A stretch of DNA of 54,866 nucleotides, taken from NCBI GenBank assembly GCA_017542305.1, contig JAFXXK010000021.1, forward strand, positions 1 through 54,866. The letters run 5' to 3'. The first letter of the stretch is position 1. Each line of letters begins with the position of its first letter. The DNA is from a bacterium. GTDB lineage: Bacteria; Cyanobacteriota; Vampirovibrionia; Gastranaerophilales; Gastranaerophilaceae. The translations under genes and the position numbers were made by a program. Shown here in pieces: positions 4,312-32,008 of the stretch. The notes below the pieces were generated by a model. That model was given only the letters and a program-made list of their open reading frames with translations, did no database searches and was not told the DNA's origin.

Positions 4312-5331
4312 TTAAACTGCGTTTTTTTGTTTTGCCTGTTTTTTGTATTCAAGGTATTTGTCACATAACAAGTTAGTAGGTTTAACTACCGCCAGCGGAA
4401 CAAAGAATCTGTAAACGAATCCGAATACAAGGATTGAACGTAATGCCGCAAAACCTTTGCTTCTTATCTTTAATCTCTTGAGCATACTTTTATCAACGAC
4501 ATGCTGTTCACCGTATTTATCAAGATAATCGTTAATTTCTATAAAGTTCTTTCTGACTATATTTTCTGTTTTTACAGCATTTGCGATTTTTTCTTTCATT
4601 TCAGCGCTGCCTGTAGCGATAATACTCTTACATTTTTGGATTAATGCGTTTTTATCTTCAGGATTAGCAACTTTTATTCCGGCATCGGCAAGTTTTTCTG
4701 CAAAGATACCCATTTTTGAATTTTTATCGAGAACGACATCACTCTTAATGAATTTTTTGACTAATTTATTTAAAGCCTTATCATCTTTAATGGTCATTTC
4801 GAGTTTTGTTTCACCCTTAGCGACTTTTTCTATAGTCTGTTTATTCATGTCTGAGTTCATTTCATTCATACCGTCCCAAGCGGAATTTCCTGCGGCATTT
4901 AATCTTAAATATCTTTCATGCTGTTTCTTCCACCAGCTTTTTAAAGAACCGTCTAATGTGTACGCGCCCAATGTAGATAATAACAATGTAAAGCCTTGAT
5001 TTACCGTTAAAGTAGCACGTCTGTCTTTATCCATTTTCTTGTTGGTATAAGTCTGGTGCATATACATACCGCTGGTAATAACGGAACCGACAGCCAGGAA
5101 GTGTTTAACAGCATTTTCACTGTTTCTTATTGTATAACCCAGCTTGTTAACTACAAAATTATCAAATATAGGTCTGCAAAAATGTTTACCTACTTCCTCA
5201 CAGAATTTATCATAACCTTTTGATATATTCATACCCGTAAAGGTTTGCGGTTGAGGTTTCGCACATCTTTTATCAAGATTATAGTTGTATTGCGTATTGA
5301 ATTTTGGAGAAATATTATGAGAAATGTTCAT
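4312..5331 (-). CDS. Lineage-specific membrane protein with N-terminal F-T-G motif
   Basis: I recognise no named family. The 339 residues begin without a signal peptide but with QTFTG at residues 29-33. A hydrophobic pair of segments follows (about 75-95 and 110-130), separated by the charged loop TNKKMDKDRRATLTVN. Next comes a long lysine/glutamate-rich helical middle, then a C-terminal hydrophobic helix with a central proline (VYRFFVPLAVVKPTN) and a basic tail. The same layout appears in the upstream 372-residue gene and in the 696-residue gene at 29918-32008, so these look like divergent paralogues. The ATG shares its A with the upstream stop (TAATG), so it is translationally coupled to that gene. 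Function unknown; membrane location is inferred from hydrophobicity. Confidence 0.8.
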   Translation of the reverse strand: MNISHNISPKFNTQYNYNLDKRCAKPQPQTFTGMNISKGYDKFCEEVGKHFCRPIFDNFVVNKLGYTIRNSENAVKHFLAVGSVITSGMYMHQTYTNKKMDKDRRATLTVNQGFTLLLSTLGAYTLDGSLKSWWKKQHERYLRLNAAGNSAWDGMNEMNSDMNKQTIEKVAKGETKLEMTIKDDKALNKLVKKFIKSDVVLDKNSKMGIFAEKLADAGIKVANPEDKNALIQKCKSIIATGSAEMKEKIANAVKTENIVRKNFIEINDYLDKYGEQHVVDKSMLKRLKIRSKGFAALRSILVFGFVYRFFVPLAVVKPTNLLCDKYLEYKKQAKQKNAV

Positions 5332-6449
5332 TACTTATCACCTCCGGTAAATTCTTTAAACGCTTTCATTGAATTAGATAATATTGCTTTATTTGCATCA
5401 ACAACTGTCTGGGTTGTTGTATTATTTTCAGCTTTTTTATTTGCCGATTTGCCTTTTTCTACATGGAATACATATTTCAAAATCGGCGGAATTAATGCTA
5501 TTGTCAGCATTGCTCTTGGTATTGCAATTGCCCATTCAGAAATATTATGCATTGTTGTATCAATACCTTTCATATGATTTTCAAGGTTCTTGATTTGTTT
5601 CATTAGATTTTCTTTTTCCATAATATCGGTTGTTGTAGCCAATAAATGTTTCAGTTCATTTACTTTATCAACTTTATCAGCTACTATCTTCAAATATCCC
5701 GGATAAAGGACTTTTGTTTCAATTACATTTCCGTTTTTATCTTTTATTTCTTTTATTACAAACTTTTTAAGCGGAATAATTTGACCCTTATTGTCTTTTA
5801 TAAACTGAGCCATTTTTTCGTGACTTATCGGATTTCCTGAATTATCTTTAAGCTGTTTCAGAATATCTTCTTTAGACAATTTATCTGATTCCATTTTATC
5901 TGCGATTTTTTCAGGAGTTAAATTATTCTTTCTTATGTAATCAGCCAATTCTTTAACTGTCAATTTGTCATAATCTTCTTTGCGCATCTTTTTGGCATCT
6001 TTGTAGATGAATTTTATACCGGAATCAATAGGGGTAGTTATCAAAGTAGAGAACCCGAAACCGATAACACCGGATGCCATTGAATGACCTGCAGCATAAA
6101 TTTTGTCTTCCAGGTCTTTTTTACCCGGTAAAGATATTGTAATTGCAGGTCTCAAACCGCCTGCAAGGAATAAAGCTATAAGAGAAGCTGCCGCTACATT
6201 GTGTTCACCGGCAAATCCGGTCAACCAATTGAAAGCTCTTGAATCCATTATCTTCTCCATTAAAGTTTTAGCGGCAGTCACACTCTCATTTGGTAACTTG
6301 CCGCTAAAATTCACATTATATCCTCTTGTATTATTCTCACCGTACATCAGTGCATAATTTCGCACATTTCTATCCGGATGCTCCGAGTCATACCCTGACT
6401 TAAGTCGTCTCTTGTGGGTAAATTCACTTGTTAAGGGTTTTATATTCAT
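5331..6449 (-). CDS. Lineage-specific membrane protein with N-terminal F-S-G motif
   Basis: The 372-residue orphan belongs with the gene that follows it. NVNFSG sits at residues 45-50 and there is no signal peptide. A hydrophobic segment (NVAAASLIALFLAGGLRP) and a loop with KKDLEDK lead to a second hydrophobic stretch (about 140-160). A highly charged helical middle (about 165-300) follows, then a C-terminal helix containing MLTIALIPPILKYVF and a basic, Asn/Thr-rich end. It has the same order of elements as the 339- and 696-residue proteins. A likely promoter lies 22-49 bases upstream, and the stop overlaps the next ATG as TAATG, giving a two-gene operon. Function unknown. Confidence 0.8.
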   Translation of the reverse strand: MNIKPLTSEFTHKRRLKSGYDSEHPDRNVRNYALMYGENNTRGYNVNFSGKLPNESVTAAKTLMEKIMDSRAFNWLTGFAGEHNVAAASLIALFLAGGLRPAITISLPGKKDLEDKIYAAGHSMASGVIGFGFSTLITTPIDSGIKFIYKDAKKMRKEDYDKLTVKELADYIRKNNLTPEKIADKMESDKLSKEDILKQLKDNSGNPISHEKMAQFIKDNKGQIIPLKKFVIKEIKDKNGNVIETKVLYPGYLKIVADKVDKVNELKHLLATTTDIMEKENLMKQIKNLENHMKGIDTTMHNISEWAIAIPRAMLTIALIPPILKYVFHVEKGKSANKKAENNTTTQTVVDANKAILSNSMKAFKEFTGGDK

Positions 6450-6470
6450 GACCTACCGTTAAATTTTTAA

Positions 6471-6498
6471 CTTATACAATTATTTTAAAACAAAGCAA
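6471..6498 (-). promoter_or_regulatory. Probable sigma-70 promoter for the 5331-6449 / 4312-5331 operon
   Basis: On the minus strand TTGCTT (6498-6493), a 16-base spacer and TATAAG (6476-6471) lie just upstream of the ATG at 6449. The region is very AT-rich, so chance matches are possible. Confidence 0.5.
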
Positions 6499-6704
6499 AC
6501 CAATTTTTGCCAAATGATTACAAAATGTTTACAATATTTTAACTAAAAGTCGTAAATTAGCTATTCTTGCGGAGTTTGAAGTTCGATTTGTTTATTTTTA
6601 ATATTTAAATATCTGTCACATTGCTTAACACAAATTATCAGACAGAATTCTGTTCTTTAAATCCTGCCCGATATACTTACTGTTAATTAGATTTTTGATT
6701 AAAG

Positions 6705-7142
6705 TTACGGGGTTTCTTCTGTACTTTCGATTACTTTATCGGCAGTATTTCTTACTTTTTTAGCTGCGTAATTAGTAGCCTTTTTAGCTCCTCTTTTAGT
6801 TGCATGACCCGCTTTTATTGCATTTTCTTTTGTGAATTCTCCTGCCTTTTTCGCTGCTTTTGCAGCATTCTTTTTTGTTGCGTGTCCTGCTTTTATTGCA
6901 CCATCTTTTGCAACTTCAGCGGCCTCAGATGATTTTTCCATTACAAAATCACCTGTTTTTTGGGCAGCTTCCTGAGTCTTTACACCCAAATCTTTTGCGG
7001 TTTCTTCAGTTTTTGTCTGAAGTTTTTCTAATGTTGTAGGATTAGCTTCCTCTGTATGAACCGTATAAACTTCATCCGCCATAGAAGAATTAAATCCCGT
7101 AATCATCAAACCCAATACTAAACAAACAATTTCTTTTCTCAT
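6705..7142 (-). CDS. Secreted LEA-like Ala/Lys repeat protein
   Basis: The 145-residue protein has a signal peptide (hydrophobic core to about residue 19, cleavage likely after SSMA), so it is exported. The mature part is nearly all Ala, Lys, Glu and Thr. It has heptad/11-mer-like periodicity and two copies of KAGHATK spaced 24 residues apart. This matches late-embryogenesis-abundant group 3 and apolipoprotein-like amphipathic helices; no enzyme motif is visible. It could coat or cushion the envelope under stress, but that is inference. The start is secure: GGAGGG precedes the ATG, and a TTGACA-N17-TAGTAT promoter lies 24-52 bases upstream. No terminator is evident after the stop. The 255 bases to the next gene hold only that gene's promoter and a 12-bp palindrome near 6642. 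Confidence 0.75.
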   Translation of the reverse strand: MRKEIVCLVLGLMITGFNSSMADEVYTVHTEEANPTTLEKLQTKTEETAKDLGVKTQEAAQKTGDFVMEKSSEAAEVAKDGAIKAGHATKKNAAKAAKKAGEFTKENAIKAGHATKRGAKKATNYAAKKVRNTADKVIESTEETP

Positions 7143-7165
7143 AATAACCCTCCTATTTAATAGAA

Positions 7166-7194
7166 ATACTAATATATTATTATTGTTATGTCAA
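7166..7194 (-). promoter_or_regulatory. Sigma-70 promoter for the LEA-like gene
   Basis: On the minus strand a perfect TTGACA (7194-7189), a 17-base spacer and TAGTAT (7171-7166) are followed by a 23-base stretch to the ATG that holds GGAGGG. The -35 box abuts the T run of the pckA terminator. Confidence 0.65.
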
Positions 7195-7226
7195 CAAAAA
7201 AGCTCCGCAAATTTGCGGAGCTTTTT
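7195..7226 (-). terminator. Terminator of pckA
   Basis: The perfect inverted repeat AGCTCCGCAAATTTGCGGAGCT (read in parts: stem GCTCCGCAA, mirror TTGCGGAGC) is flanked by A and T runs on either side. On the minus strand it ends in six Ts, 24 bases after the pckA stop. Confidence 0.85.
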
Positions 7227-7249
7227 ACTTTATATATAGTCATTAAAAA

Positions 7250-8851
7250 CTATTGAACGGTACTAAGCGGTTTAGGACCTGCATTAACAATTTCAGCCGG
7301 CATATTAGGATATTTGCTTGAGAAATTATCTGCAAACATCTGAGCCAATTTGTTAGCTGCTTCGTCATAAGCTGCTTTATCTGCCCACATACCTCTTGCA
7401 TCAAGCATTTCTGCAGGAACATTCGGACAAGAAGTCGGGTAATCAACGTTAAATACATCATGATGTTTGAATTCAACATTATCAAATGAGCCGTTCAATG
7501 CTGCAGATACCATAGCTCTTGTGTAAGACAATTTCATTCTCTTAGCACCTGAAGAAGCACTTCCGCCTGCCCATCCGGTATTTACTAAGTAAACCTTAGT
7601 GCCGTATTGGTCTAACTTATCACCTAACATCTTAGCGTAAACACTTGCATCCATAGGCATGAAAGGTTCGCCGAATAATGTTGAGAATGTCGGAACAGGT
7701 TCTGTAATACCTCTTTCAGTACCTGCCAATTTGGAAGTAAAGCCTGTTACAAAGTGGTACATTGCAGCATTCTTATCTAATCTTGAGATAGGAGGTAATA
7801 CACCGAAAGCATCTGCAGTTAAGAATACAACAACTTTCGGAATGCCGCCCATTGAAGGAATAGCTGCATTGTTAATGTAGTTTACAGGATAACCTACACG
7901 AGTATTTTCTGTTAATGAACCGTCAGCAAAATCAAATTCTCTTGTTTCAGGATCCATAATTACGTTTTCAACCAATGAACCGAATTTAATTGCGTGGTAG
8001 ATATCAGGTTCATTTTCTTCTGTAAGGTTGATACATTTTGCATAGCATCCGCCTTCGAAGTTGAATACCCCGTCAGGTGACCAGCCGTGTTCGTCATCAC
8101 CGATTAATTTTCTTGAAGGATCAGCTGATAATGTGGTTTTACCTGTTCCTGAAAGGCCAAAGAAAACTGCTGTTTCATGAGTTTCAGGATCCATATTAGC
8201 TGAACAGTGCATAGGTAATACATTCTTCTTAGTCATAACATAGTTCATAGTAGCGAATACTGATTTTTTAATTTCGCCTGCATACTGTGAACCTGCAATA
8301 ATAATTGTATGTGCTTCATAATCGATAGCTATACATGCTTCAGAGTTTGTTCCGTCAACAGCCGGATCGCATTTGAAGCCAGGAGCACAAATAATTGTGT
8401 AATCAGCTTCGCCGTAGTTTGCCAATTCTTCTGCTGTCGGTCTGATTAATAATTGGTGAATGAACATGTTTTGGCTTGCTAATTCGTTGATTACTCTGAA
8501 TTTTTGAGTATAAGTTTTATCAGCACCTGCAAAACCGTCAAAAATAAAGATTTCTTTACCGTTCAGGTAATTAATCATTTTAGATTTAATAGAGTTAAAT
8601 GTTTCTCTTGAAATAGGACGATTTACTTTGCCCCATGCTATATCATTGTGAATAGTATCAGTATCAACAATAAATTTATCCTTAGGTGAACGACCTGTAT
8701 ATTTACCTGTGGTAACAACAAGTGCACCGGTGTTACTTAAAGAACCTTCACCTCTTCTTAAAGCAGCTTCGGTCAACTGAGCCGGAGTCCAGTTTCTGTG
8801 TACTGCAGAAGGCGAGGTAATTCCTAATTTTTCAATACCATAAGTTTCCAT
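7250..8851 (-). CDS. pckA: Phosphoenolpyruvate carboxykinase (ATP)
   Basis: This enzyme interconverts oxaloacetate + ATP and PEP + CO2 + ADP in the cytosol. The 533 residues match the usual length of about 540. The kinase-1a P-loop GLSGTGKTTLS (Lys near residue 238) and the kinase-2/metal segment LIGDDEHGW are intact, as is the substrate-binding TGRSPKDKF. An in-frame extension reaches 8911. The ATG at 8851 is preferred because it follows AAAAAAGGAGG at ideal spacing and aligns with family N-termini. A promoter at 8896-8924 and a strong terminator at 7195-7226 make it monocistronic. In a fermenter it may run towards oxaloacetate, feeding the sodium-pumping decarboxylase encoded 2 kb away. That direction is inference. 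Confidence 0.97.
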   Translation of the reverse strand: METYGIEKLGITSPSAVHRNWTPAQLTEAALRRGEGSLSNTGALVVTTGKYTGRSPKDKFIVDTDTIHNDIAWGKVNRPISRETFNSIKSKMINYLNGKEIFIFDGFAGADKTYTQKFRVINELASQNMFIHQLLIRPTAEELANYGEADYTIICAPGFKCDPAVDGTNSEACIAIDYEAHTIIIAGSQYAGEIKKSVFATMNYVMTKKNVLPMHCSANMDPETHETAVFFGLSGTGKTTLSADPSRKLIGDDEHGWSPDGVFNFEGGCYAKCINLTEENEPDIYHAIKFGSLVENVIMDPETREFDFADGSLTENTRVGYPVNYINNAAIPSMGGIPKVVVFLTADAFGVLPPISRLDKNAAMYHFVTGFTSKLAGTERGITEPVPTFSTLFGEPFMPMDASVYAKMLGDKLDQYGTKVYLVNTGWAGGSASSGAKRMKLSYTRAMVSAALNGSFDNVEFKHHDVFNVDYPTSCPNVPAEMLDARGMWADKAAYDEAANKLAQMFADNFSSKYPNMPAEIVNAGPKPLSTVQ

Positions 8852-8895
8852 TATATTTCCTCCTTTTTTATGGGTATTTGTAAGTATATATAGTA

Positions 8896-8924
8896 AGTGT
8901 ACCATAAACACTAAAAAAATGCAA
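8896..8924 (-). promoter_or_regulatory. Sigma-70 promoter of pckA with extended -10
   Basis: On the minus strand TTGCAT (8924-8919), a 17-base spacer and TGGTACACT (extended -10, hexamer 8901-8896) give a leader of about 40 bases carrying AGGAGG. The match would place transcription start near 8889. Confidence 0.6.
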
Positions 8925-8957
8925 TATATTTAGTTTTGTTGTGCATCTGAGTATAAT

Positions 8958-10436: not shown

Positions 10437-10504
10437 TTCCGCAAACTTTCTTCAAAATTTCAATCACAAATAACATGGTAACATAAATATATTTAATAAT
10501 AAGA

Positions 10505-10534
10505 TTTGCAGTATAAGATTATTCGATATAAAAT
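10505..10534 (+). promoter_or_regulatory. Possible promoter of birA-oadGAB, start point at or near the ATG
   Basis: TTTGCA (10505-10510) is followed after 16-18 bases by TATAAA/TAAAAT (10527-10534). The predicted start falls within two bases of the birA ATG at 10541, and no Shine-Dalgarno lies between them. Confidence 0.45.
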
Positions 10535-10540
10535 TTAACT

Positions 10541-11490: not shown

Positions 11491-11535
11491 TAAACATCCG
11501 ATAATATAAAGAATCTAATTTAAAGGAGATATATA

Positions 11536-14693: not shown

Positions 14694-16535
14694 ATGAAAA
14701 TTGACGGAGAAAATCAGGATTTTCAATCCGGCGGAGTGCCTAAAAAATCCCGTTTATTAGATATTGAAACTTTTAAAAAGCTATTAACGGTTTTTGATGC
14801 AAATACCGATGGCAAAGTTACCAGAGAAGAAGTTTTAAACGGATTGCAGTTGTCAAAAGCTTTGTCCGGCACACCGCAGAATAATGCTTTTGCGAACTTA
14901 TCTTCGGAAAAACTTCAGGAAATAATTGCTTCTAACAAAGATTTAGACGGAAATTATTCTGTTGAAGATTTGCAAAATTTTATAACTGACTATGAAGCTG
15001 AGTTTACCGAACAAACATCCGTACCTGATGATATTCCTCTGAAAATTGATGTTAAGAATCTTACAATTGAAAAGATAAAACAACTGTATAACGGTAAAGA
15101 TGTCCGGATTTCAGAAACGTTAAACGAAGAAACAAAGAAAAAAATTATTGAAGTATTTAATAAGGCAGGAGAACCTGTTGCTCGCTATGAATCAAATAAT
15201 GGAGAAGTTTATACAATTTCCGATAATTATGACAAACTAAAAGCTGCATTTGAAAGGCTGCGTTTTTATAACCAACAAGGAAATTTATTCAGATTTACCG
15301 AGGGCGGTAATTGGTATGATGTTTCACCTGATACCGGTGTTATTATAGATGATGTAGATATGGATTCGGCGGTTGAAGCCGGAGGTTTAACAACCGCAAA
15401 ATCAGGTCGCAGCAGAAAACGAAGAGCATCATCGGGGAATGTAGCCCAGATAGCAGACAACTTATATAAAGATGTTTCTAAAACCAGTTTGGGGGTTGTA
15501 CCTACAACTGATAAAAAGGGGTTGAAAAAACATGTTGCCGAAATAAATTCAAGAAATGTTCTGGATGTCTTGTATTATTATTACAAGAAGTCCAAACAAA
15601 ATCTTGCTACTGCAATTTTCCATGAAGTTGGTCTTGATGCCTCTTTAAGAGCTGAACTTGTTAAACATATCATGAATGCTGTGTGTGATGCATATAGAGC
15701 CAAAGGAATATATGTTGATGATGTACGCTCTGCTATGATGAAAGAGATTAAGTATCAAAAAAACAGAATAGGAATGATGGATGCAACCTTATTAAATAAA
15801 CTTGTTAATAAGTTGTGTGATAGATTAAAGTCAAAAACAGAAGGTCCACAAAAAAATTACAAAGCTGATGGCAAAGTAGAATGTCCGAGATCTCAGGGCA
15901 AAACCGGTGACTGCTGGCTGGTTGCAACCATAAATTCATTATCAAGATCTCCAAAAGGTCAGAAACTTTTAAATGATTCCATAAAAGTCAATTCCGATGG
16001 GAGTGTCACCGTACATCTAAAAGGGGTAAATAAAACCTACACATTTTCCAAAGCAGAGCTTAACGGCGCAATGGAATATTCAACCGGGGATTTAGACGTT
16101 AGAGCTTTAGAACTTGCTGTGGATAAATATTACATGGAAACAAAACATGATCGTCTTATAGATGATGGCGGTCGTGAAATTGATGCCTTTAAAATCCTTA
16201 TCGGAAAGAGTCATTTAGATTTTTATGGATGGGATGCTATTTGGGATGATGTTGTGGGTATATCTGATTCGTATAAGAAAAAAATAAATGCCCAAAATAC
16301 GATTTGTTTGGCTGCTTGCCACTCAACTCCTTTGTCAAATGTCCCCTCCGATAGCGATATTGCATATACTACTCCCGATGGAATTTCAATATATAAAAAC
16401 CACGCTTATAGTGTTGTCCGAGCGGATGATAAATATGCATATCTGATAAATCCGTGGGATAGTACTAAAGAAATAAGAGTTCCGTGGAAAGACTTTAAAA
16501 AGATATTTAATTCATTTAGTGATGTCACGTTATAA
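14694..16535 (+). CDS. Calpain-type (C2) cysteine protease with N-terminal EF-hand pair
   Basis: The C-terminal 230 residues carry a calpain-family catalytic core: SQGKTGDCWLVA (Cys407, Gln-box before it), NHAYSVV (His570) and LINPWDS (Asn586), in the right order and context. The N-terminus has two calcium loops. DANTDGKVTREE (35-46) is a perfect EF-hand with acidic position 12. NKDLDGNYSVED (81-92) is a good second one. The middle (about 130-370) is unassigned, with a basic patch SGRSRKRRASSG near 240 that could be a processing site. No signal peptide is seen; residues 9-10 (DF) weakly recall the N-terminal F motif of neighbouring orphans. AGGAG precedes the ATG. Calcium-controlled proteolysis is inferred; substrate and location are unknown. 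Confidence 0.85.
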   Translation: MKIDGENQDFQSGGVPKKSRLLDIETFKKLLTVFDANTDGKVTREEVLNGLQLSKALSGTPQNNAFANLSSEKLQEIIASNKDLDGNYSVEDLQNFITDYEAEFTEQTSVPDDIPLKIDVKNLTIEKIKQLYNGKDVRISETLNEETKKKIIEVFNKAGEPVARYESNNGEVYTISDNYDKLKAAFERLRFYNQQGNLFRFTEGGNWYDVSPDTGVIIDDVDMDSAVEAGGLTTAKSGRSRKRRASSGNVAQIADNLYKDVSKTSLGVVPTTDKKGLKKHVAEINSRNVLDVLYYYYKKSKQNLATAIFHEVGLDASLRAELVKHIMNAVCDAYRAKGIYVDDVRSAMMKEIKYQKNRIGMMDATLLNKLVNKLCDRLKSKTEGPQKNYKADGKVECPRSQGKTGDCWLVATINSLSRSPKGQKLLNDSIKVNSDGSVTVHLKGVNKTYTFSKAELNGAMEYSTGDLDVRALELAVDKYYMETKHDRLIDDGGREIDAFKILIGKSHLDFYGWDAIWDDVVGISDSYKKKINAQNTICLAACHSTPLSNVPSDSDIAYTTPDGISIYKNHAYSVVRADDKYAYLINPWDSTKEIRVPWKDFKKIFNSFSDVTL

Positions 16536-16658: not shown

Positions 16659-17828
16659 ATGAATATATCCAAAATTTCAGCGGTAAGTTTCAGGGCAGAC
16701 AATGTTCAGCCGGAAGAAAAACCAAAAGAATCTAAAGCAAAAGAATTTTTGCATAAAAAAGAAGCTCCGTATATTATAGGAGCATCTGCTTTAGCCGCAA
16801 TAGCTATTGGAATACTCGCTGTTAAGAAAGGGAAGGGAGTAAAAAATCCACCCCACAACCCCATAACGGAACATCCTGCTCCGCATACCGAACCTCCCGT
16901 AACAAAACCCACTGGTGCAGACGGGAATATAACAGCAACCCCCAAACCGGAATCCCCCGTAACTCCGCCTGAAATGACAGTACCCGAAACGCAAGAAAGT
17001 ATCATTAATATGGGACCGTGGGATGATTCGGAATTACTTGAGATTGGTGCAAATGTTGCTCACGTTGACGTAGCTCCGGGTTATATTGAACCGGAAATCA
17101 TTAAACAAACTCAAAATCGCACAGGTCTTATTACCGAATATTTAACAAAATACATGGATAACCTTGAGATATTAGAAGGTGTTAAGGACGGGACTTTAAC
17201 TCCTTTAAAACGCTTCAAATATTTTATCAAAAATTTTGACGAAAGAATTGAGGCTTTCATAAGAAGTATTAACAGCAATTACGTTGTAGATAATATCAAT
17301 ACAAACGGATTATATCGCTACAAAAACGATTACATGACAGCTTTTAATGAATTCATAAAAGATTCTAAATCAAGCTTATTCAAAGCGAGAATTGAAGAAA
17401 ATGGCAACACCATACTTCTGACACAAAAAGACGGAAGGAAAATTCTATATACATTTGAAGAAGGCGAAAAAGGCGGACTTAAGACAATAAAAGAACTTCC
17501 GAAAGGTGATGACCAAACCTCAATAACACTCCATTATCTGCCCGATAAATACTGGGATTACGGTAAAATCGGAATCAATCGTATTCATAAAATTGAATAC
17601 CATAACACAGAAACAAATAAGCTGATACAAAGTATTACGATACATCCAGACGACAGAGCTGCTCATACGGTAATACTCAATGACCCGAATACGGGAAAAC
17701 CTGTATTAACTATGAACAGAACAGCAGAACCGAATCATTTATACTACGATACAGTACTTTATCAAAAAGGAAAACCTGCAATCAACATCAATACCCAAAA
17801 TGATACGGTACAGGTTATAAAAGATTAA
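16659..17828 (+). CDS. Membrane-anchored orphan with N-terminal S-F-R-A motif and Pro-rich linker
   Basis: The 389-residue protein matches no family I know. It starts MNISKISAVSFRADN, resembling the F-x-[GA] N-termini of other orphans here. A charged stretch leads to one hydrophobic helix (about residues 36-53), then basic residues. A Pro/Thr-rich linker (about 60-112) follows. The soluble remainder is about 270 residues; its second half is beta-rich with Asn/Asp-Gly turns (ILNDPNTGKPVLTMNR). A single-pass anchor with a spacer and a distal domain is the simplest reading. Which side of the membrane it faces is not evident. AAGGAG seven bases before the ATG fixes the start. It follows the calpain-like gene but is separated from it by a terminator. 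Confidence 0.75.
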   Translation: MNISKISAVSFRADNVQPEEKPKESKAKEFLHKKEAPYIIGASALAAIAIGILAVKKGKGVKNPPHNPITEHPAPHTEPPVTKPTGADGNITATPKPESPVTPPEMTVPETQESIINMGPWDDSELLEIGANVAHVDVAPGYIEPEIIKQTQNRTGLITEYLTKYMDNLEILEGVKDGTLTPLKRFKYFIKNFDERIEAFIRSINSNYVVDNINTNGLYRYKNDYMTAFNEFIKDSKSSLFKARIEENGNTILLTQKDGRKILYTFEEGEKGGLKTIKELPKGDDQTSITLHYLPDKYWDYGKIGINRIHKIEYHNTETNKLIQSITIHPDDRAAHTVILNDPNTGKPVLTMNRTAEPNHLYYDTVLYQKGKPAININTQNDTVQVIKD

Positions 17829-17873: not shown

Positions 17874-19226
17874 TTATTCTTTTTTTGAACCTGTCCAGAA
17901 AGGTTTGGTCTTGGTATTCATTGCGTGCTCTATATTGCTCAAAAGATCTTGGACATCTTCATTATCATCTAAGGACTGAGCCTGCTTTGCATACCCTAAA
18001 GCAGCTTCCGGTTTGTTATTATTTAAGTACATCGCAGAAATATTATATAAAATAATATATTTATCGCTATCTTCTTTTGATAAATTATATGCTTTTTGGA
18101 AAGATGCAAGGGCATTCTTAAAATCGCCCATATCATCATAGGCAATTGCCATATCTATATATCCGCCTGGAAGATCAGGTGCCTGTGCAACATAATTTTT
18201 TGCCTCTTTTAATTTTTGAGATGACATATTCTTTGCAGAACCCAAAACAACCGGTCCATATATTAATGTCTTTGTGGGAAACTCTGATATCGGGGTATTG
18301 GAAATAGTCGGTACTATATTATACAAAAGGCGAATTGTTGATATATCGGTAGGAGAAATATACTGAAAAGCACTTCTGTGTTTAATAAATAATCTGTTCT
18401 CTCCCTGATTTGCCTGATTTGCCATATACATCAAGTCATCCGTACTGTAACTGTGCCCCATGATACCTAAAGCATGTCCAATCTCGTGTAAAACTGTACT
18501 GTAAAGCTCTTTATCAGAGAAGAACGAACCGTTTGCATCTTTATCATAAACCGTAATAACCATCTTCTTTAACAGTCCGTTTCTTATTACAGGATCAGTA
18601 TGCGCAACAACATACTTGCAACCGCTGTCTGCGCAATTCGTTATGGGGGAAGGCTCATATTTCACCACAATTTGCGCAGATGATTCATTATCTATAAATT
18701 TAAAAGTTATGAAACCGGAAGATGCAGTCCACTGCCCAAAAGCTCTGGAAACTTCCGTTGTATAATAATCAGGATAATAACTATTATCCTCTGATGATAC
18801 ATAAACTTTCAGCGGAAAAGTTTTCGGATTCCAGTGTATTATTTCCGTATTCATAGGAGTTCTGTCAATATAGTTTGCACCGTATTTCTGCAACAAATTG
18901 TTCCGCCACAGACTGACCTGAATACCTGCGAAAAGTTGCGCACTGTCTTTTTTATCACTGTTTGCGAACTCAAACATTTCCTTTTGAATATTATAAGAGG
19001 GTTTAAACTTTGCAAGAGTCTGAACATAATAATACTTGTAATTAGAATTTTGTTTATTCCATAATCTGGCATTTTTTAAATTCTTATAAGCCTGAAAATA
19101 CTTACCCTGCTTAAAATAAGACACACCAGTATTGAAAAAATATTCAGGTAAAGCTATTGCACCGACAACAATAAAAAACAGCAATACCGCCAGAATTCCG
19201 ATACTAAATATGTACCTCTTTTTCAT
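17874..19226 (-). CDS. Membrane-anchored matrixin-like zinc metalloprotease with TPR repeats
   Basis: One N-terminal membrane helix (about residues 7-27) is followed by a TPR-like helical pair. A metzincin domain (about 125-310) has the zinc site HEIGHALGIMGH at 247-258 and the Met-turn DDLMY. The zinc motif is HExxHxxGxxxH, one residue longer than the textbook matrixin spacing; this variant is common in bacterial M10-like proteins. The C-terminal third has at least two TPRs (GGYIDMAIAYDDMGDFKNAL and YNISAMYLNNNKPEAALGYA). It probably cleaves proteins on the periplasmic or outer face. No propeptide cysteine switch was recognised. Its first 23 bases overlap the end of scpB, placing it last in the smc-scpA-scpB unit, an unexpected partner. 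Confidence 0.85.
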   Translation of the reverse strand: MKKRYIFSIGILAVLLFFIVVGAIALPEYFFNTGVSYFKQGKYFQAYKNLKNARLWNKQNSNYKYYYVQTLAKFKPSYNIQKEMFEFANSDKKDSAQLFAGIQVSLWRNNLLQKYGANYIDRTPMNTEIIHWNPKTFPLKVYVSSEDNSYYPDYYTTEVSRAFGQWTASSGFITFKFIDNESSAQIVVKYEPSPITNCADSGCKYVVAHTDPVIRNGLLKKMVITVYDKDANGSFFSDKELYSTVLHEIGHALGIMGHSYSTDDLMYMANQANQGENRLFIKHRSAFQYISPTDISTIRLLYNIVPTISNTPISEFPTKTLIYGPVVLGSAKNMSSQKLKEAKNYVAQAPDLPGGYIDMAIAYDDMGDFKNALASFQKAYNLSKEDSDKYIILYNISAMYLNNNKPEAALGYAKQAQSLDDNEDVQDLLSNIEHAMNTKTKPFWTGSKKE

Positions 19227-24017: not shown

Positions 24018-24048
24018 AATTTTCCCGTTTATACACGTCCCTTTTACT

Positions 24049-24633: not shown

Positions 24634-24653
24634 ACCATATAAAATATAAAACG

Positions 24654-24678
24654 ACACCGCAGAAATGCGGTGTTTTTT
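24654..24678 (+). terminator. Terminator of the small secreted protein gene
   Basis: ACACCGC / GCGGTGT with loop AGAAAT runs into TTTTTT, 21 bases after the stop. Confidence 0.87.
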
Positions 24679-24687
24679 ATACAAAAT

Positions 24688-24715
24688 TTGCATTGCGGAC
24701 AAAATATGCTATAAT
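24688..24715 (+). promoter_or_regulatory. Strong promoter of the PadR-like gene, predicted leaderless
   Basis: TTGCAT, a 16-base spacer and a perfect TATAAT with TG one base upstream are followed by exactly six bases and then ATG (24722). The canonical start point therefore coincides with the A of the start codon, and no Shine-Dalgarno is present. Confidence 0.65.
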
Positions 24716-24721
24716 CCGTAT

Positions 24722-26504: not shown

Positions 26505-27535
26505 AACTGTTTCAAAAACCTTACGTCATCATTGAAAAACAGTCTTATATCATCGATTGCATATTTAAGCATTGCAAATCTTTCTACGCCCATTCCGAAT
26601 GCAAAACCGGAATAAACTTCAGGGTCAATACCAACCCCTCTTAACACGTTGGGGTCAACCATACCTGCACCCAAAACTTCTAACCAGCCTGTTCCTGAAC
26701 ATGTCTTGCAACCTTTACCGCCGCACATTATACATTGAACATCAACTTCAGCTGACGGTTCTGTAAACGGGAAAAAGCTACTTCTGAATCGTGTAGGACG
26801 GCTTGCCCCGAAATATATTCTTATAAATTCGTTCAAAACACCTTTCAAATCACCAAATGTGATATTTTTATCAATATACAACCCTTCTATCTGATGGAAG
26901 AAATTGTTTTTACGTGCATTTATATTTTCGTTACGATAAACTCTTCCCGGAGAAATAACTCTGATAGGAGGTTTTTGATTTTCCATAACGTGGATTTGAG
27001 CACCTGAAGTCTGACTTCTTAATACAACATTCTGTGCTACCGTTGTAAAAAACGTATCCTGAACATCACGGGCAGGATGGTCTTGCGGGATATTTAACAT
27101 ATCGAAGTTAAAGTATTCTGTTTCAACTTCCGGAGAATCTTTACTCTCAACAACCGAGAAACCAAGACTCTGCAATATTGATACAATCTCATTGGTAGTC
27201 GAAGTCAGCGGATGAACTTTCCCTCTCGGAGAAAATTTACCCGGCAAAGTAACATCGAGTCTTTGTTTTTCAAGTTTTTGATTCAATTCAACTTTATAAA
27301 ATTGGTCATGTTTTGCCTGAATTGAAGTTTCCAGCTTTTTTGTAATTTCATTTGCCAAAGAACCAACAATTCTCTTATCTTCATCAGATAAATTCTTCAG
27401 GTTCTTTTTTATTTCATTAAATTCGCCCTTGCGGCTGAGATATTTCGCGCGCACTTCTTCCAAATCATTGATTGATGCCGCTTTATCAATATCCGCAGCT
27501 GCCAGAGAATATATTTTTTCAAGCTGTTCTTTCAT
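26501..27535 (-). CDS. pheS: Phenylalanyl-tRNA synthetase, alpha subunit
   Basis: The catalytic subunit charges tRNA-Phe in the cytosol. The 344 residues have the N-terminal coiled-coil arm (about 1-85) and HPLTSTTNEIVSIL at the start of the class II core. Motif 2 is RFRSSFFPFTEPSAEVDV, and motif 3 is GFAFGMGVERFAMLKY. Between them lies the cysteine-rich CIMCGGKGCKTCSGTGW, a four-Cys knuckle found in a subset of bacterial PheS. The usual partner pheT is not adjacent and must lie outside the window. GAGG precedes the ATG. Five bases separate it from the upstream MBL gene, suggesting a kdsA-MBL-pheS unit. Confidence 0.96.
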   Translation of the reverse strand: MKEQLEKIYSLAAADIDKAASINDLEEVRAKYLSRKGEFNEIKKNLKNLSDEDKRIVGSLANEITKKLETSIQAKHDQFYKVELNQKLEKQRLDVTLPGKFSPRGKVHPLTSTTNEIVSILQSLGFSVVESKDSPEVETEYFNFDMLNIPQDHPARDVQDTFFTTVAQNVVLRSQTSGAQIHVMENQKPPIRVISPGRVYRNENINARKNNFFHQIEGLYIDKNITFGDLKGVLNEFIRIYFGASRPTRFRSSFFPFTEPSAEVDVQCIMCGGKGCKTCSGTGWLEVLGAGMVDPNVLRGVGIDPEVYSGFAFGMGVERFAMLKYAIDDIRLFFNDDVRFLKQF

Positions 27536-27540
27536 TTCTG

Positions 27541-28164
27541 CTACCTCATAATGTCGTTATACACTTTTTCGTATTTAATTGTTGTTTCATCTCCATGTCC
27601 GGGATATGCAACAATATTATCATCTAATTTTAATATAATATCATTCAGACTTGCCTTAATTTTGTCAAAATCACCGCCAAACAAATCAGTTCTTCCATAA
27701 CTGCCTCTGAAAAGAGTATCGCCGCAAAACAGTTTGTCGCCAATCTTATAACAAACACCGCCTTCAGTATGACCGGGAGTATAAATAACTCTTACTTCTT
27801 CATTTCCAAATTGCAACACATCACCCTCTTTTACATAAAAATCTACCTGAGGTATTTCAAGCTGCGGCAAACCTAAGAAAATATTTCCGAATTCGTTGAT
27901 ATTTTCAACTAAAACACTGTCATTTTTATGAAGTACGACCTGAGCATTTAGAGTTCTTTTCATAGCGTTTACCCCCATAACGTGGTCAAAATGACCGTGC
28001 GTAAGCAGGATATATTTTACATTCAGGTTCTCCTTTTCCACATCATTCAGAATATCTTCACAATAATCTGAACAATCAATAAGGATTGCTTCTTTTGTAC
28101 TTTCATCCCATATCAGATAATTATTGGCATCAATGGGTCCGGCTATGTAAGTTTTCATTTTCAT
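27541..28164 (-). CDS. Metallo-beta-lactamase-fold hydrolase, glyoxalase II-like
   Basis: The 207-residue cytosolic hydrolase has the full metal set of the MBL fold: HGHFDH (HxHxDH), the GHTEGG histidine, the GDTLF aspartate and the terminal PGHG histidine. It also has the SYGRTDLFGG segment common in YcbL/GloB-like enzymes. It likely hydrolyses a thioester such as S-lactoylglutathione or a related small substrate. A glutathione-type synthesis gene (gshA) lies 4 kb away, which makes a thiol link possible but unproven. Five bases separate its start from the kdsA stop; no strong ribosome site is visible. Confidence 0.9.
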   Translation of the reverse strand: MKMKTYIAGPIDANNYLIWDESTKEAILIDCSDYCEDILNDVEKENLNVKYILLTHGHFDHVMGVNAMKRTLNAQVVLHKNDSVLVENINEFGNIFLGLPQLEIPQVDFYVKEGDVLQFGNEEVRVIYTPGHTEGGVCYKIGDKLFCGDTLFRGSYGRTDLFGGDFDKIKASLNDIILKLDDNIVAYPGHGDETTIKYEKVYNDIMR

Positions 28165-28169
28165 AATAT

Positions 28170-28991
28170 TTAAGTTCTCACCAATTCAAAAATATCACGG
28201 CACATCGTAAATAACTTTTCAGTATTGTCCAAAGCTACCATATTAGGTCCGTCACAAAGTGCTTTATCAGGATCAGGGTGAATTTCGAAGAACAAAACAT
28301 TAGCTCCTGCAGCCATTGCTGATTGTGCCAATATAGGAACAAATCTTCTGTCTCCGCCTGAGCATATGCCGTTAGCACCAGGCAGCTGAACGCTATGAGT
28401 AGCATCAAAGACAACAGGATATCCGAATGCCTGCATTATCGGAATACCTCTGAAATCTACAACAAGATTATTGTATCCGAATGTTGTACCTCTATCCGTA
28501 AGCATTATTTGAAAGTTACCGCTGTCCTCAACTTTTCTGATAAGCGGTTCCATTTGTTCCGGTGCCAAAAACTGACCTTTTTTGATATTTATTATTTTCC
28601 CTGTTTTAGCCGCAGCAACAAGCAAATCTGTCTGACGGCATAAGAATGCAGGGATTTGTATTACATCGGCAACCTCTGCCGCATATTTCGCCTGCTCGGG
28701 AGAATGAATATCAGTAACTATCGGCAAATCAAACTTGTCTTTGACCTTCTGCAGCATTTCCAGACCTTTTTCCATACCCGGTCCTCTGTACGATGTTATA
28801 GAAGAACGATTTGCCTTATCAAAGGAGGATTTGAAAATGTAATTAATCCCCAGCTTTGTCGTAAGTTCTTTTATCTTTTCCGCAGTTCTGTCAAGTATTT
28901 CCTGACTTTCAATAGCACAAGGACCTGCCATAATTGTCAGCTTGTCCCCGCCTATCTCGAAATCTCTTAATTTTAATTTTCTCATATCCAT
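28170..28991 (-). CDS. kdsA: 3-deoxy-8-phosphooctulonate (KDO-8-P) synthase
   Basis: KdsA condenses PEP with arabinose-5-phosphate to KDO-8-phosphate, the first committed step to the KDO sugar of lipopolysaccharide or related glycans. The 273 residues contain MAGPCAIESQEIL, YIFKSSFDKANRSS, LTDRGTTFGYNNLVVD and FFEIHPDPDKALCDGPN, all family signatures. Start choice: an in-frame codon at 29039 precedes the promoter and is rejected. ATG 28991 sits at the predicted transcription start, and ATG 28985 is a second option. The gene supports a diderm envelope. It heads a kdsA-MBL-pheS cluster. Confidence 0.95.
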   Translation of the reverse strand: MDMRKLKLRDFEIGGDKLTIMAGPCAIESQEILDRTAEKIKELTTKLGINYIFKSSFDKANRSSITSYRGPGMEKGLEMLQKVKDKFDLPIVTDIHSPEQAKYAAEVADVIQIPAFLCRQTDLLVAAAKTGKIINIKKGQFLAPEQMEPLIRKVEDSGNFQIMLTDRGTTFGYNNLVVDFRGIPIMQAFGYPVVFDATHSVQLPGANGICSGGDRRFVPILAQSAMAAGANVLFFEIHPDPDKALCDGPNMVALDNTEKLFTMCRDIFELVRT

Positions 28992-28997
28992 ACAGTA

Positions 28998-29026
28998 ATT
29001 ATATAAAAAACAAAAGGATATGACAA
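28998..29026 (-). promoter_or_regulatory. Strong promoter of kdsA, predicted leaderless
   Basis: On the minus strand TTGTCA (29026-29021), a 17-base spacer and a perfect TATAAT (29003-28998) are followed by six bases and then ATG at 28991. The canonical +1 is the A of the start codon, and no Shine-Dalgarno is present. Confidence 0.7.
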
Positions 29027-29031
29027 GTTCA

Positions 29032-29856
29032 TTAGCCAAATTTTATTGAAAGAATTATAACAATTATGAAATAGGTAATCAAAAGAAGTATAAATTCTCC
29101 GATATACCCGAATAAAGCCAAAGCTGAACCTTTTTCGTCCCTTTTATTTGCGCAATAAGCCTGTCCGATCAGATTATTGAAGCTTAACCTGAAAATCGGG
29201 GCAAGCAGCAAAGGAATAATATAAAAAAGCGCATACTTTAAACTTACCATAGTGCAACTGCCCATAAAGCCCAATATTACAGAAAGGCTGAGTATAGCAA
29301 ATAATGCGGTAAAATAATTTATGCTGAAATATGAAAAAACTTTTTTTAAGTTATACAGGGCAAAAAGATCTTCGTTCTGTTCAAGGTATGCAAAAAGAAA
29401 TCCCGGACCTGCCAGAATTAAAACAATTTCAACAATTGCAAACAAAAAGAACGGTATTATAAGCAGGACAAGGAATGCTTTGCTTACCGTTGAAAGCATT
29501 GCAACAGAAACCAACAAAACCAAAAATACCGCTATTATAGGCATAGCAAGCATTAAAATTGCAGTTATAAATTTTATACCGGTTATAAAAATATCACCAG
29601 GTTTTGACCAATCCGGCAATAGCGCATTTTCATCGTTCATAAGATTTTGAATATATTTTAAATGATATCCGTAATCAAAAATCATAGCCAAAAAATAAAG
29701 CGGAATAGCTATCGGCAACAAATCATAATTCTTTGCTACCATTATAAAAGTCATCAGTCCCATTGCAAAAGTTAATACAACCAAAACCGAATATTTTGAC
29801 AAAAAATCTTTGTCTTTAAATATATTTTTAAACGCACTTCTCGTACTTACTGCCAT
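29032..29856 (-). CDS. DUF4013-like integral membrane protein
   Basis: The 274-residue protein has six or more hydrophobic segments and a short N-terminal amphipathic stretch, STRSAFKNIFKDKDFLSKY. The loop LPDWSKPGDIFITGIKF resembles the DUF4013 family, whose function is unknown. It has no transport signature I can name. ATG 29856 is chosen over ATG 29862 because GGAG lies eight bases before the former and only two before the latter. It has its own promoter at 29889-29916. It ends 41 bases before kdsA, in which the kdsA promoter lies. Confidence 0.75.
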   Translation of the reverse strand: MAVSTRSAFKNIFKDKDFLSKYSVLVVLTFAMGLMTFIMVAKNYDLLPIAIPLYFLAMIFDYGYHLKYIQNLMNDENALLPDWSKPGDIFITGIKFITAILMLAMPIIAVFLVLLVSVAMLSTVSKAFLVLLIIPFFLFAIVEIVLILAGPGFLFAYLEQNEDLFALYNLKKVFSYFSINYFTALFAILSLSVILGFMGSCTMVSLKYALFYIIPLLLAPIFRLSFNNLIGQAYCANKRDEKGSALALFGYIGEFILLLITYFIIVIILSIKFG

Positions 29857-29888
29857 AATCATATCTCCATCTCAAAATCAATATTTTA

Positions 29889-29916
29889 ATATTAACAGAA
29901 TGAGATGAATTGTCAA
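29889..29916 (-). promoter_or_regulatory. Sigma-70 promoter of the DUF4013-like gene
   Basis: On the minus strand a perfect TTGACA (29916-29911), a 16-base spacer and TGTTAATAT (extended -10, hexamer 29894-29889) lie directly after the stop of the 696-residue gene. Confidence 0.62.
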
Positions 29917-29917
29917 A

Positions 29918-32008
29918 TTACTTTGCTAAAAAGCCCTGCATTGATATTTTTGTTCCGGGATGTGCAAAATGCACCTGTTCGTCTTTGACATTAGCAAAAA
30001 CAGGAATAGCACCGGAATTAATTTGAGCTTCCAAATCACGAGCTCTTGCTTTTCTTGTCATCTTATCACAAGTTCTTGCCAACCATACCATAAATAGCGG
30101 AACTAATGCTATAGTTGATAAGCAAGTGAACATACTGTTATATATTTTTGCGTGTTTTACAAATTTGTTTTTGCTGTTTTTGAATATGTTCTCAAATGTT
30201 TCAAGAGCATCGGTCTGTGCCTTGTTATTAGAATCAATGTTCTTGAATGCCTGTTTGATTTCATTATCATCAACAACATCTTTAATGTCTTTACCAAGTA
30301 TAGCTCTCAGGCTGCCTGTCATTTCCGCACTCTTGTCTTTGGATAATAATTTTTTCAGGTTACCGCCGTTTTCGGTAACGAAATCGAAGAATCCGTTAAC
30401 ACCGCCGTTGAACTTGTGTATATCCGTATATTTCGAGGTTAATTCTTTATTAGACAGAACATTTATACCGCCAAAACCTTTTGGAGCAAAATAATCCCTG
30501 ATGTATTTGGTATAGAAATTCGTATCATGATCTTTTGGTGCGATATTCAATGCCAAACCTGATACTTTAGAGAATACATTAGAGAATGCTCTTTCAAGTC
30601 CGTTCGCAGCAAACAAAATTGCGCCAAAACTTGTGAAGTCACGCAGCCATGTTTCTCTTCTGTCATATTTGTCGGGTGCATTGTATAATCTTGTCGGCAG
30701 ACAGAAACCGTATAATAATGCCAGCATTGCTGAAACAGACATTGAAGCATCGTCAAATTCAAAATGATTTAAGACACCTTTCAGTTTATTCGAATTTAAT
30801 ACTTGTTTTGCCGTCTTTTCAAATATTTCGTGTTTCCCGCTGAAGGAAATCTCTTTTGGCGCAGCATTAGCATTGACAGTTGAAGCATGCTTGCTTGCGT
30901 TCAGCTTTTCAGCTTCTTCTTTTGCTCTTTGTTCATGAGCAAACGCCGGATTCTGACCATGCAATCCCCAAGAATATAATTTTGGGATAAAGGCATAAAA
31001 TGCTACTACAGCACCCCACATTCCGACAATTGAAAGAATTCTGGAACCGGTTCTTCTGTTTACAAAGCCGTTTAAAAATCTCTCAGGGTCAAATGTCCTA
31101 TCTTTCAGCTTCTTCATTGCATTACCGGTAGAATCTATAACATCATCCGTAAAATCTGTCATAGTCTTAAGAAGCTTTTTGAATGAAACTCCGGTCTTTT
31201 CTTCAACTACTGAAGAAGTTTCGGTTGCTTTATCAAATTTTTGAGTTTTAAAGGATATTTCAGCAGACATTTCATTTGCAGAAGGACTTAAATAAGCCTT
31301 CTTCAATTTCATGAAATCATCTAACAAACTGTCGGTTAAATCTTGCGGTGAACCTTCGACCTTTTTATTGATAAGAACCTTCCATAACGGTTTTTTCTTA
31401 TCTTTTGCCAACTCAATTTCTATAGCTCTGTCTGCAAATTCTTTTGCAGCCTGCTCTAACTTATCGGCAGGTAAATTACCTTCAAGTGTAGTATTCAGAA
31501 CATTTTTAAATACTTTATGATAGAATTCTGATTTTGTTTTTGAAACATTATCAAGAGTTGCAGAATTTTCATTTGCATATTCAATGAAGTTATTACCTAA
31601 ACTCTGAATCATATTTATCGGAACATTATTTGCCGTTCCTGAATATTTTTTAATAAAATGAAGAAGTATCCAAGGAATAATAAATGCACTCGGACCACTC
31701 AGGATTTCGCGAATACCTTCACGTCGAGCGAAAGCCCAATTGTAAGGACCCTCTTTTTTACCTGTTTTATCATTTACTGGTCGTCGGTTGATGCCTTCCA
31801 ATACACGAGGACCGGCCATGCCGAAAAAGTCCTGAGCAATAAAAGACACAATGAAACCACCGTTAGTTAAAGCATCTGCTACAGCTACCGGAATCTGTTC
31901 CAAACCCTGAAAAGATGGCTGAGCCGCAGTTTTTACAACCTGGGGCTGAACATTTTTTTTATTGTTTACAGATTTTATATCTGCTGCTTTTATTGCCTGT
32001 ATCGCCAT
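29918..32008 (-). CDS. Large lineage-specific membrane protein with two F-x-G segments
   Basis: No named family is recognised. The 696 residues have PSFQG at 31-35 and a second EISFSG near the middle, each followed by similar material. The first is followed by a hydrophobic helix with GPRVLEGINRRP, a charged loop and another hydrophobic helix (about 105-125). The second is followed by a hydrophobic segment, LPTRLYNAPDKYDRRETWLR, and another helix. This looks like an internal duplication of a two-helix module. A long charged middle and a C-terminal helix, STIALVPLFMVWLAR, with a basic end match the 339- and 372-residue proteins. AGGA precedes the ATG. Function unknown; it is probably an inner-membrane protein. 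Confidence 0.8.
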   Translation of the reverse strand: MAIQAIKAADIKSVNNKKNVQPQVVKTAAQPSFQGLEQIPVAVADALTNGGFIVSFIAQDFFGMAGPRVLEGINRRPVNDKTGKKEGPYNWAFARREGIREILSGPSAFIIPWILLHFIKKYSGTANNVPINMIQSLGNNFIEYANENSATLDNVSKTKSEFYHKVFKNVLNTTLEGNLPADKLEQAAKEFADRAIEIELAKDKKKPLWKVLINKKVEGSPQDLTDSLLDDFMKLKKAYLSPSANEMSAEISFKTQKFDKATETSSVVEEKTGVSFKKLLKTMTDFTDDVIDSTGNAMKKLKDRTFDPERFLNGFVNRRTGSRILSIVGMWGAVVAFYAFIPKLYSWGLHGQNPAFAHEQRAKEEAEKLNASKHASTVNANAAPKEISFSGKHEIFEKTAKQVLNSNKLKGVLNHFEFDDASMSVSAMLALLYGFCLPTRLYNAPDKYDRRETWLRDFTSFGAILFAANGLERAFSNVFSKVSGLALNIAPKDHDTNFYTKYIRDYFAPKGFGGINVLSNKELTSKYTDIHKFNGGVNGFFDFVTENGGNLKKLLSKDKSAEMTGSLRAILGKDIKDVVDDNEIKQAFKNIDSNNKAQTDALETFENIFKNSKNKFVKHAKIYNSMFTCLSTIALVPLFMVWLARTCDKMTRKARARDLEAQINSGAIPVFANVKDEQVHFAHPGTKISMQGFLAK

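Follow-up and report, generated by a model that had tools for sequence, protein, structure and literature searches.

A conserved N-terminal F-x-[GAS] tag on unrelated proteins of Gastranaerophilales and its possible docking at a flagellar-type export apparatus

A 54,866-nucleotide contig from a genome of the bacterial order Gastranaerophilales (assembly GCA_017542305.1, contig JAFXXK010000021.1; the whole stretch is called the window below) encodes five proteins without recognised families that share a short motif, F-x-[GA], near their N-termini. This raises the question of whether so small a pattern on unrelated proteins reflects a genuine element and, if so, what purpose it serves. We observe a tag that is conserved among orthologues, confined to N-termini, laid out in two parts, restricted to this order within our samples, and present in genomes that also carry a flagellar-type apparatus. 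Such a tag is very probably a functional element of some kind. Our preferred interpretation, which we hold tentatively on the basis of sequence comparisons, is that the F-x-G tag is not removed and may dock proteins at a flagellar-type (type III) export apparatus.

The source genome is 1.70 Mb in 27 contigs and 77.9% complete, and the window (contig C4 of our set) has a guanine-cytosine content of 36%. Genes were called with a simple custom script, which yielded 36 genes in the window. Tag counts were made on samples comprising 48% of this genome (the own genome) and 2-11% of each other genome. The five motifs named by the original prediction, and the DF at residues 9-10 that it had listed as a weak sixth case, are all present in the sequence as follows.

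5233..5247, minus strand: QTFTG, residues 29-33 of the protein of gene 4312-5331; leader at 5248-5331
6300..6317, minus strand: NVNFSG, residues 45-50 of the protein of gene 5331-6449; leader at 6318-6449
16683..16697, plus strand: VSFRA, residues 9-13 of the protein of gene 16659-17828
31904..31918, minus strand: PSFQG, residues 31-35 of the protein of gene 29918-32008; leader at 31919-32008
54656..54670, minus strand: QNFTA, residues 11-15 of the protein of gene 54212-54700; leader at 54671-54700
14718..14729, plus strand: DFQS, residues 9-12 of the protein of gene 14694-16535 (EF-hand/calpain-like; weak sixth case)

To evaluate these motifs, orthologous loci of the five genes (counts include the window's own proteins) were compared. 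F-x-[GASN] is retained in 94 of 99 loci, and the leaders vary in length and sequence. Thus, the motif is kept where the leader is not, and the F-x-[GA] form first proposed holds at all five window sites, with Ser or Asn also accepted at the third position. For example, the motif is found in 29 of 30 loci for gene 4312-5331 (in the exception, L172, the start that was read lies downstream of the leader), as F[ST][GS] in 28 of 30 for gene 5331-6449, and as F-x-[GSN] in 30 of 30 for gene 29918-32008, more distant loci included. All five loci of gene 54212-54700 carry F-x-A although the other four proteins are only 21-33% identical. For gene 16659-17828, F-x-[GAS] is present in two of four loci; L226 has TFRE and L228 is poorly aligned. 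Aligned parts of the window families are often merely 32-50% identical, and F-x-G is still kept; the residue that follows F-x-[GAS] is variable. In the three large families, the pattern-picked F lies at residues 10-35, 44-63 and 22-49, where the lower bound of 10 derives from an earlier F-A-N of L171 rather than its F-T-G. In L176 and L187, an IPTFPN-like unit is copied ahead of the final motif.

The arrangement is also seen in the protein of gene 29918-32008. When the window protein is aligned with nine orthologues on public contigs, P31-S32-F33-Q34-G35 is invariant in all ten sequences and residues 7-30 contain zero invariant columns, such that the motif sits between a variable leader and a conserved domain. 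An AlphaFold model of this protein has a mean predicted local distance difference test (pLDDT) score of 50 and a predicted template modelling score of 0.33, and no fold search was made from it because the model quality is too poor. The low pLDDT values of residues 1-40 (block means 26-39) are in keeping with a floppy leader. The variable Asn/Ser/Lys-rich stretch originally described before the motif does vary as claimed, but only 8 residues precede VSFRA in the protein of gene 16659-17828.

A tag profile was trained on the five window families only, with training sites chosen by family-specific patterns (at L171, the pattern picked the early F-A-N, and the true F-T-G lies further on). The five window genes score 8.7-12.3 and the other 31 called window genes score 3.7 or less; only the 31 low scores are an independent result, because the five families trained the profile. 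No Pfam family is above cut-off for any of the five tagged proteins. The calpain-like protein has Peptidase_C2 above cut-off and a tag profile score of only 3.5, consistent with its being a weak case. A shorter homologue of this protein in the own genome (L020:13779-14993, E 2e-46) has an Asn-rich leader containing NNNTD-FSG and scores 7.0. For the window's EF-hand plus calpain-like cysteine protease, a weak NCBIfam match to XopAW (E 0.047, 13.5 bits versus a cut-off of 120, within the EF-hand part) was disregarded.

Whether the motif is more frequent than expected depends on how the leader is treated. Genome-wide, the loose pattern [NQSTV][ST]?F.[GA] within residues 2-50, which had been put forward as a frequency check, is at background: it occurs in 60 of 678 own-genome proteins versus 46.6 ± 6.3 after shuffling, and interior windows are similar. 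Enrichment over shuffled sequences appears once the leader is considered. Among own-genome proteins with polar, Asn-containing starts, [NSTPQV]F.[GA] is present in 41 of 242, versus 23.0 ± 4.5 expected. Controls in the same polar-leader proteins (the reversed motif, L.G, I.G, V.G and Y.G) all stay within 1.6 standard deviations, and FG is also raised (47 versus 33.0 ± 4.5). No excess is seen in six genomes outside the order, where 6 of 63 polar-leader proteins carry the motif and 5.5 are expected.

Similar results were obtained with the profile, for which the score thresholds (at least 8 and at least 9) were picked after the scores were known. With the five window genes left out, 20 of 673 own-genome proteins score at least 8, compared with 1.5 ± 1.1 after shuffling and with 7, 1 and 6 for three permuted profiles; at 9 or above the count is 14, compared with 0.55 ± 0.8 and with 2, 0 and 3. 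In six further Gastranaerophilales genomes, where positives include homologues of the window families, 12 of 761 proteins reach 8 (shuffled 2.9 ± 1.0; permuted 6, 4 and 12) and 6 reach 9 (shuffled 0.75 ± 0.6; permuted 1, 2 and 2). Judged by these shuffled and permuted-profile counts, the excess in the other genomes is modest and is carried by the highest scores. In six genomes outside the order there is no excess at either threshold, with 3 of 381 proteins at 8 or above (shuffled 2.15; permuted 2, 1 and 5) and 1 of 381 at 9 or above (shuffled 0.8; permuted 1, 0 and 4). A hand-made two-part rule yielded 22 of 673 own-genome proteins with F versus 14 with L, 13 with I and 15 with V; this rule was rejected as a discriminator on its performance in the other genomes of the order (F in 16 of 761, versus L 24, I 16 and V 18).

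Counting the five window genes, 25 of 678 sampled own-genome genes (about 4%) carry a high-scoring tag. These 25 and the 12 from the other genomes form 33 unrelated clusters, as judged by a clustering in which residues 1-60 were left out except for the shortest proteins. The excess of high-scoring sites is confined to N-termini. Within residues up to 60, sites scoring at least 8 number 25 in the own genome (window five included) versus 8, 2 and 6 for permuted profiles, and 18 in the order's other sampled genomes versus 12, 8 and 10. Beyond residue 60, no enrichment is evident, either in the own genome (15 sites versus 19, 16 and 14) or in the others (10 versus 21, 11 and 17).

A second element lies at the extreme N-terminus. 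Ile or Val occupies residue 3 in 14 of 20 tagged own-genome proteins (without the window five) versus 79 of 609 low scorers (Fisher p 2e-8), and in 9 of 12 tagged proteins versus 84 of 682 in the six other genomes sampled from the order (p 2e-6). A pair of Ile or Val residues, at positions 3 and 6, is found in 14 of 25 tagged own-genome proteins (window five included) versus 12 of 609, and in 4 of 12 versus 22 of 682 elsewhere in the order. Among orthologue sites, 92 of 94 have V, I or L within residues 2-5. The profile gives Ile and Val no reward: their shares in training leaders (6.8% and 4.0%) are below those at residues 2-25 of the low scorers (9.7% and 6.2%). Compared with the same residues of low scorers, tagged own-genome leaders are rich in Asn (17.5% versus 5.8%) and poor in Leu (3.6% versus 10.3%). 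The earlier claim that signal peptides are absent holds, as judged by eye and hydropathy rather than with a dedicated predictor. In a hydropathy scan, 24 of 25 tagged own-genome proteins have no transmembrane (TM)-like segment starting before residue 60; the sole protein that does, that of gene 16659-17828, has its single such segment at about residue 35, after VSFRA.

Three of the tagged window genes belong to widespread families, and they contain the following further features.

4312..5331, minus strand: tagged orphan of 339 amino acids with a C-terminal hydrophobic segment (by hydropathy); neighbour of gene 5331-6449
5331..6449, minus strand: tagged orphan of 372 amino acids with two hydrophobic segments; match in 86 of 98 genomes of the order
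29918..32008, minus strand: tagged membrane-type protein of 696 amino acids; near-universal in the order (133 of 146 genomes)
30836..30847, minus strand: internal second copy of the motif in the 29918-32008 protein, SFSG, at residues 388-391, ahead of its second half
29930..29944, minus strand: SMQGF, residues 689-693, a C-terminal look-alike that follows a variable linker in the same protein

The protein of gene 4312-5331 has a match in 78 of 98 genomes of the order. That of gene 16659-17828 belongs to a narrow family (4 of 98), and that of gene 54212-54700 has a match in 5 of 98. Outside the order, the 29918-32008 protein was matched in 1 of 48 sampled genomes of the class (E 1.4e-4) and in 0 of 49 of the phylum. 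In some genera of the home family (g3 and g9; the family is termed f1, and g1-g12 are among its genera), the 5331-6449 and 4312-5331 proteins share one open frame, and both fusions that were read (L222 in G077 and L223 in G055) keep PAFTG at the internal junction. Likewise, F389 and G391 of the internal copy in the 29918-32008 protein are invariant in the ten aligned sequences, and an internal F-x-G precedes the second half in all 11 loci inspected of the 30. At the C-terminus of this protein, M690, G692 and F693 are at least 90% conserved in the ten-sequence alignment, and an [ST]-M-x-G-F-L tail is found in 8 of the 11 loci inspected. C-terminal M-x-G-F was considered as a second general tag and rejected, as it is not general among other proteins.

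Many of the tagged or tag-like proteins that were scanned have no Pfam domain. However, the tag is not limited to orphans as originally described, since recognisable enzymes are also tagged or tag-like. Those with a Pfam domain above cut-off are listed below.

L025:1808: GNAT, tagged or tag-like
L052:5838: methyltransferase, tagged or tag-like
L042:1672: PPDK_N with a glucan-water-dikinase-like domain, tagged or tag-like
L020:16445: PPDK_N, tagged or tag-like
L042:4296: AAA, tagged or tag-like
L017:8965: HNH, tagged or tag-like
L031:10315: SprA-related, tagged or tag-like
L098:8796: RNase T, tagged or tag-like
L098:13964: metallophosphoesterase, weaker tag
L098:10480: phospholipase D, weaker tag
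L094:9225: GH77, weaker tag

TM-like segments are present in 9 of 25 tagged own-genome proteins compared with 203 of 609 low scorers; the tagged class is thus not marked by membrane location. Two FlgM-like candidates, considered as known substrates that might bear the tag, were set aside after zero Pfam and zero NCBIfam matches. Separately, the region L042:392-12335 holds five tagged genes (score above 7) within 12 kb, including the protein with PPDK- and glucan-water-dikinase-like domains and the AAA ATPase. A distinct recurrent N-terminus, MGLAA[ST]QA[RK][FL]L, which is not the F-x-G tag, is found on the long proteins L050:3750-5843, L236:8228-10600 and L042:14463-16178; two of these three were scanned, and neither has a Pfam family above cut-off. 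Two other window proteins may be noted. Gene 41511-54002 encodes a repeat-rich protein of 4163 residues with a Sec-like start by eye, which looks like a surface adhesin or autotransporter, and gene 17874-19226 encodes a Peptidase_M10 (matrixin-type metalloprotease) domain with TPR repeats and a hydrophobic N-terminal start.

Genomes of the order also carry a flagellar-type apparatus. FHIPEP (the FlhA family) is found in 142 of 142 genomes. The best E-values fall into two classes: one of about 1e-260, in most genomes of other families and some genera of the home family, and a second of about 1e-216, which is the only full-length class among the best matches of g1-g12. No best value in g1-g12, the own genome included, is below 1e-222. 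The class-two FlhA of the own genome (G000:C16:161612-163696; L048:1612-3699) has counterparts of 86-94% identity in 18 of 18 other genomes compared from the home family; by contrast, identities of the 29918-32008 protein between genera of this same family are often only 36-45%. Orthologues in other orders share 59-67% identity (families f9, f14 and f15, which mostly carry a second FlhA at 37-40% too); FlhA proteins of f10-f12 share 42-48%, and none was found in f8 and f13. FliE, FliF and FliH adjoin class-two FlhA. In other parts of the own genome, within the half that was sampled, FliO, FliP, FliQ, FliR, FliMN and rod-type genes were detected, together with a FliK-like protein below cut-off. 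Flagellin was found in 0 of 38 sampled home-family genomes (genera g1-g12 only) and in 21 of 22 sampled genomes from the order's other families. Thus, flagellin-less members of the home family keep a filament-less flagellar-type apparatus. Two publications report partial sets of flagellar genes from this order and infer that members are non-motile or, for one termite species, likely motile; the sets are interpreted as incomplete or, in one species, as flagella that probably work (PMC4040986, PMC5877343). Two FlhA genes lie side by side and convergent in G012. In G058, the one genome examined in this respect, a gene starting MNVRPSSDYNNSVRFSG and carrying SVRFSG lies directly after FlhA.

A soluble protein with a small N-terminal domain weakly like DUF4177, followed by the FlhA cytoplasmic domain, is a further candidate for a tag binder.

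L244:868-2343, minus strand: FlhA_C-like protein of the own genome, 492 residues, soluble
L094:11304-12782: FlhA_C-like protein, other locus
L100:16754-18211: FlhA_C-like protein, other locus
L119:4264-5745: FlhA_C-like protein, other locus

Near end-to-end matches to this FlhA_C-like protein were found in 33 of 33 genomes of the order, with 54-74% identity outside the own genome; all 33 are of the home family, and family f6 is represented by L119 (36%). There is no end-to-end match in 74 other genomes of the class, where matches are confined to the FlhA-like part and, among the matches listed, start at query residue 107 or later. Of four genomes examined, three have a tag-like gene next to the FlhA_C-like gene. 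The own-genome neighbour was recognised as tag-like by eye from its leader; its counterpart in G031 encodes a GH77 protein that reads NQITFRR (score 6.1); and in G138, two adjacent genes are homologues of the 4312-5331 (8.9, SFGH) and 5331-6449 (4.0, LSFKG) genes. Neither neighbour is tagged in G006.

These findings could be reconciled if tagged proteins were recognised by the export apparatus. The tag would comprise a small hydrophobic amino acid at residue 3, and often another at residue 6, followed by an unstructured Asn-rich spacer that varies in length and then [SNAT]-F-x-[GAS]. It would stay on the protein, and F-x-G would dock at an export apparatus that is kept even where flagellin is lost. 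The putative binder would be the FlhA cytoplasmic domain or the order-specific soluble FlhA_C-like protein, and tagged proteins might be exported or assembled there. The hydrophobic start may engage the export gate, as reported for rod and hook subunits (PMC8983047). Early flagellar export signals are described as combining a hydrophobic extreme N-terminus with a downstream docking motif (PMC8983047, PMC10936197); in Salmonella FlgD, the two elements are at residues 2-5 and 36-40, the latter a 'small hydrophobic sequence' (PMC8983047). Across the 37 tagged proteins the F lies at residue 8-50, and in 19 of them it lies before residue 27, closer than the FlgD spacing.

Several observations weigh against docking at the export apparatus. 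The tag is kept internally in fusions, where an N-terminal export signal has no need of it. Cytosolic-looking cargoes include the AAA ATPase, RNase T, GNAT, PPDK-type and GH77 proteins, and some cargoes (9 of 25) have TM-like segments. The class-two FlhA also has orthologues in other orders, where small samples (G147 and G152) show no tag excess. Two of the three motifs next to FlhA_C-like genes lack G, A or S, and the neighbourhoods in the own genome and G031 look syntenic and are therefore not independent. Because order-specific genes are many, the matching distribution of the FlhA_C-like protein is weak evidence. Finally, the flagellar gate-recognition consensus is F-x-x-x-hydrophobic, a pattern that the tag does not share: the F+4 residue is hydrophobic in just 26 of 94 sites.

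We judge it almost as likely that the leader acts purely in the cytosol, ranking this explanation just below docking at the export apparatus. F-x-G would then be a short linear motif through which enzymes and membrane proteins are collected on a putative intracellular hub (a scaffold, membrane patch or condensate), with zero export. Such a role would accommodate the internal copies that persist at both fusion junctions and within the 29918-32008 protein, where one separates the two halves, the tandem IPTFPN-like units of L176 and L187, and the cytosolic-looking enzyme domains. However, a position-free motif should be enriched in interior disordered stretches, where no excess is seen; moreover, Ile/Val at residue 3 is left unexplained.

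The sorting, docking or processing tag initially envisaged is supported insofar as the element is N-terminal, conserved and carried by unrelated proteins, but its processing version fares poorly. A cleavage site that frees the leader would suit a small residue two positions after an aromatic and a leader free in length and sequence. Yet cleavage at the motif inside fused proteins would split them, and the residue after F-x-[GAS] is variable. Cleavage is therefore disfavoured, since fused and duplicated proteins keep the motif internally; the tag seems not simply removed, and we regard processing as very improbable. Shared descent without shared function has only a slim chance of being correct. 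According to this explanation, leaders would have been spread by fusion or arisen as a low-guanine-cytosine, Asn-rich by-product, and F-x-G would reflect chance and inheritance. This would fit the loose motif being at genome-wide background, the hand-made rule doing no better than L, I and V controls in other genomes of the order, and the excess at 8 or above there being equalled by one permuted profile (12 and 12). In contrast, F-x-G is kept where the flanking leader is scrambled and aligned parts are often only 32-50% identical, the 37 tagged proteins fall into 33 clusters, and the own-genome excess at 9 or above is 14 versus 0.55. Descent alone is already hard to hold for genes 29918-32008, 4312-5331 and 5331-6449.

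In its boldest form, which we consider unlikely though worth stating, docking at the export apparatus would mean that a flagellar apparatus has become a filament-less general sorting system. An order-specific tag and a dedicated FlhA_C-like reader would send dozens of unrelated proteins per genome, membrane proteins and enzymes included, out of the cell or to its surface. If docking at the apparatus is correct, a single short motif could classify a sizeable set of 'hypothetical' proteins from a widespread uncultured gut lineage, and the partial flagellar gene sets of flagellin-less members would encode a machine for export or docking with a cargo label of its own. In the titles and abstract openings of the papers listed, with subscription papers mostly outside the search, neither such a tag nor a non-flagellar type III system is described for this order.

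Among known systems, a Sec signal peptide is N-terminal like the tag, but the tag leader is Asn-rich and has no hydrophobic core in its first about 30 residues. PEP-CTERM/exosortase sorting likewise has a single short motif shared among many unrelated proteins within a taxon, although the tag is N-terminal and requires no adjacent TM segment and basic cluster. The targeting peptides of microcompartments and encapsulins are likewise terminal peptides that dock cargo through a flexible linker; these form an amphipathic helix, whereas the tag leader is Asn-rich. Early flagellar type III signals share with the tag their small hydrophobics at the extreme N-terminus, a spacer and a short hydrophobic docking motif. 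They differ in having F-x-x-x-hydrophobic rather than F-x-[GAS], and, unlike them, the tag rides on many unrelated enzymes and membrane proteins, with conserved internal copies in fusions.

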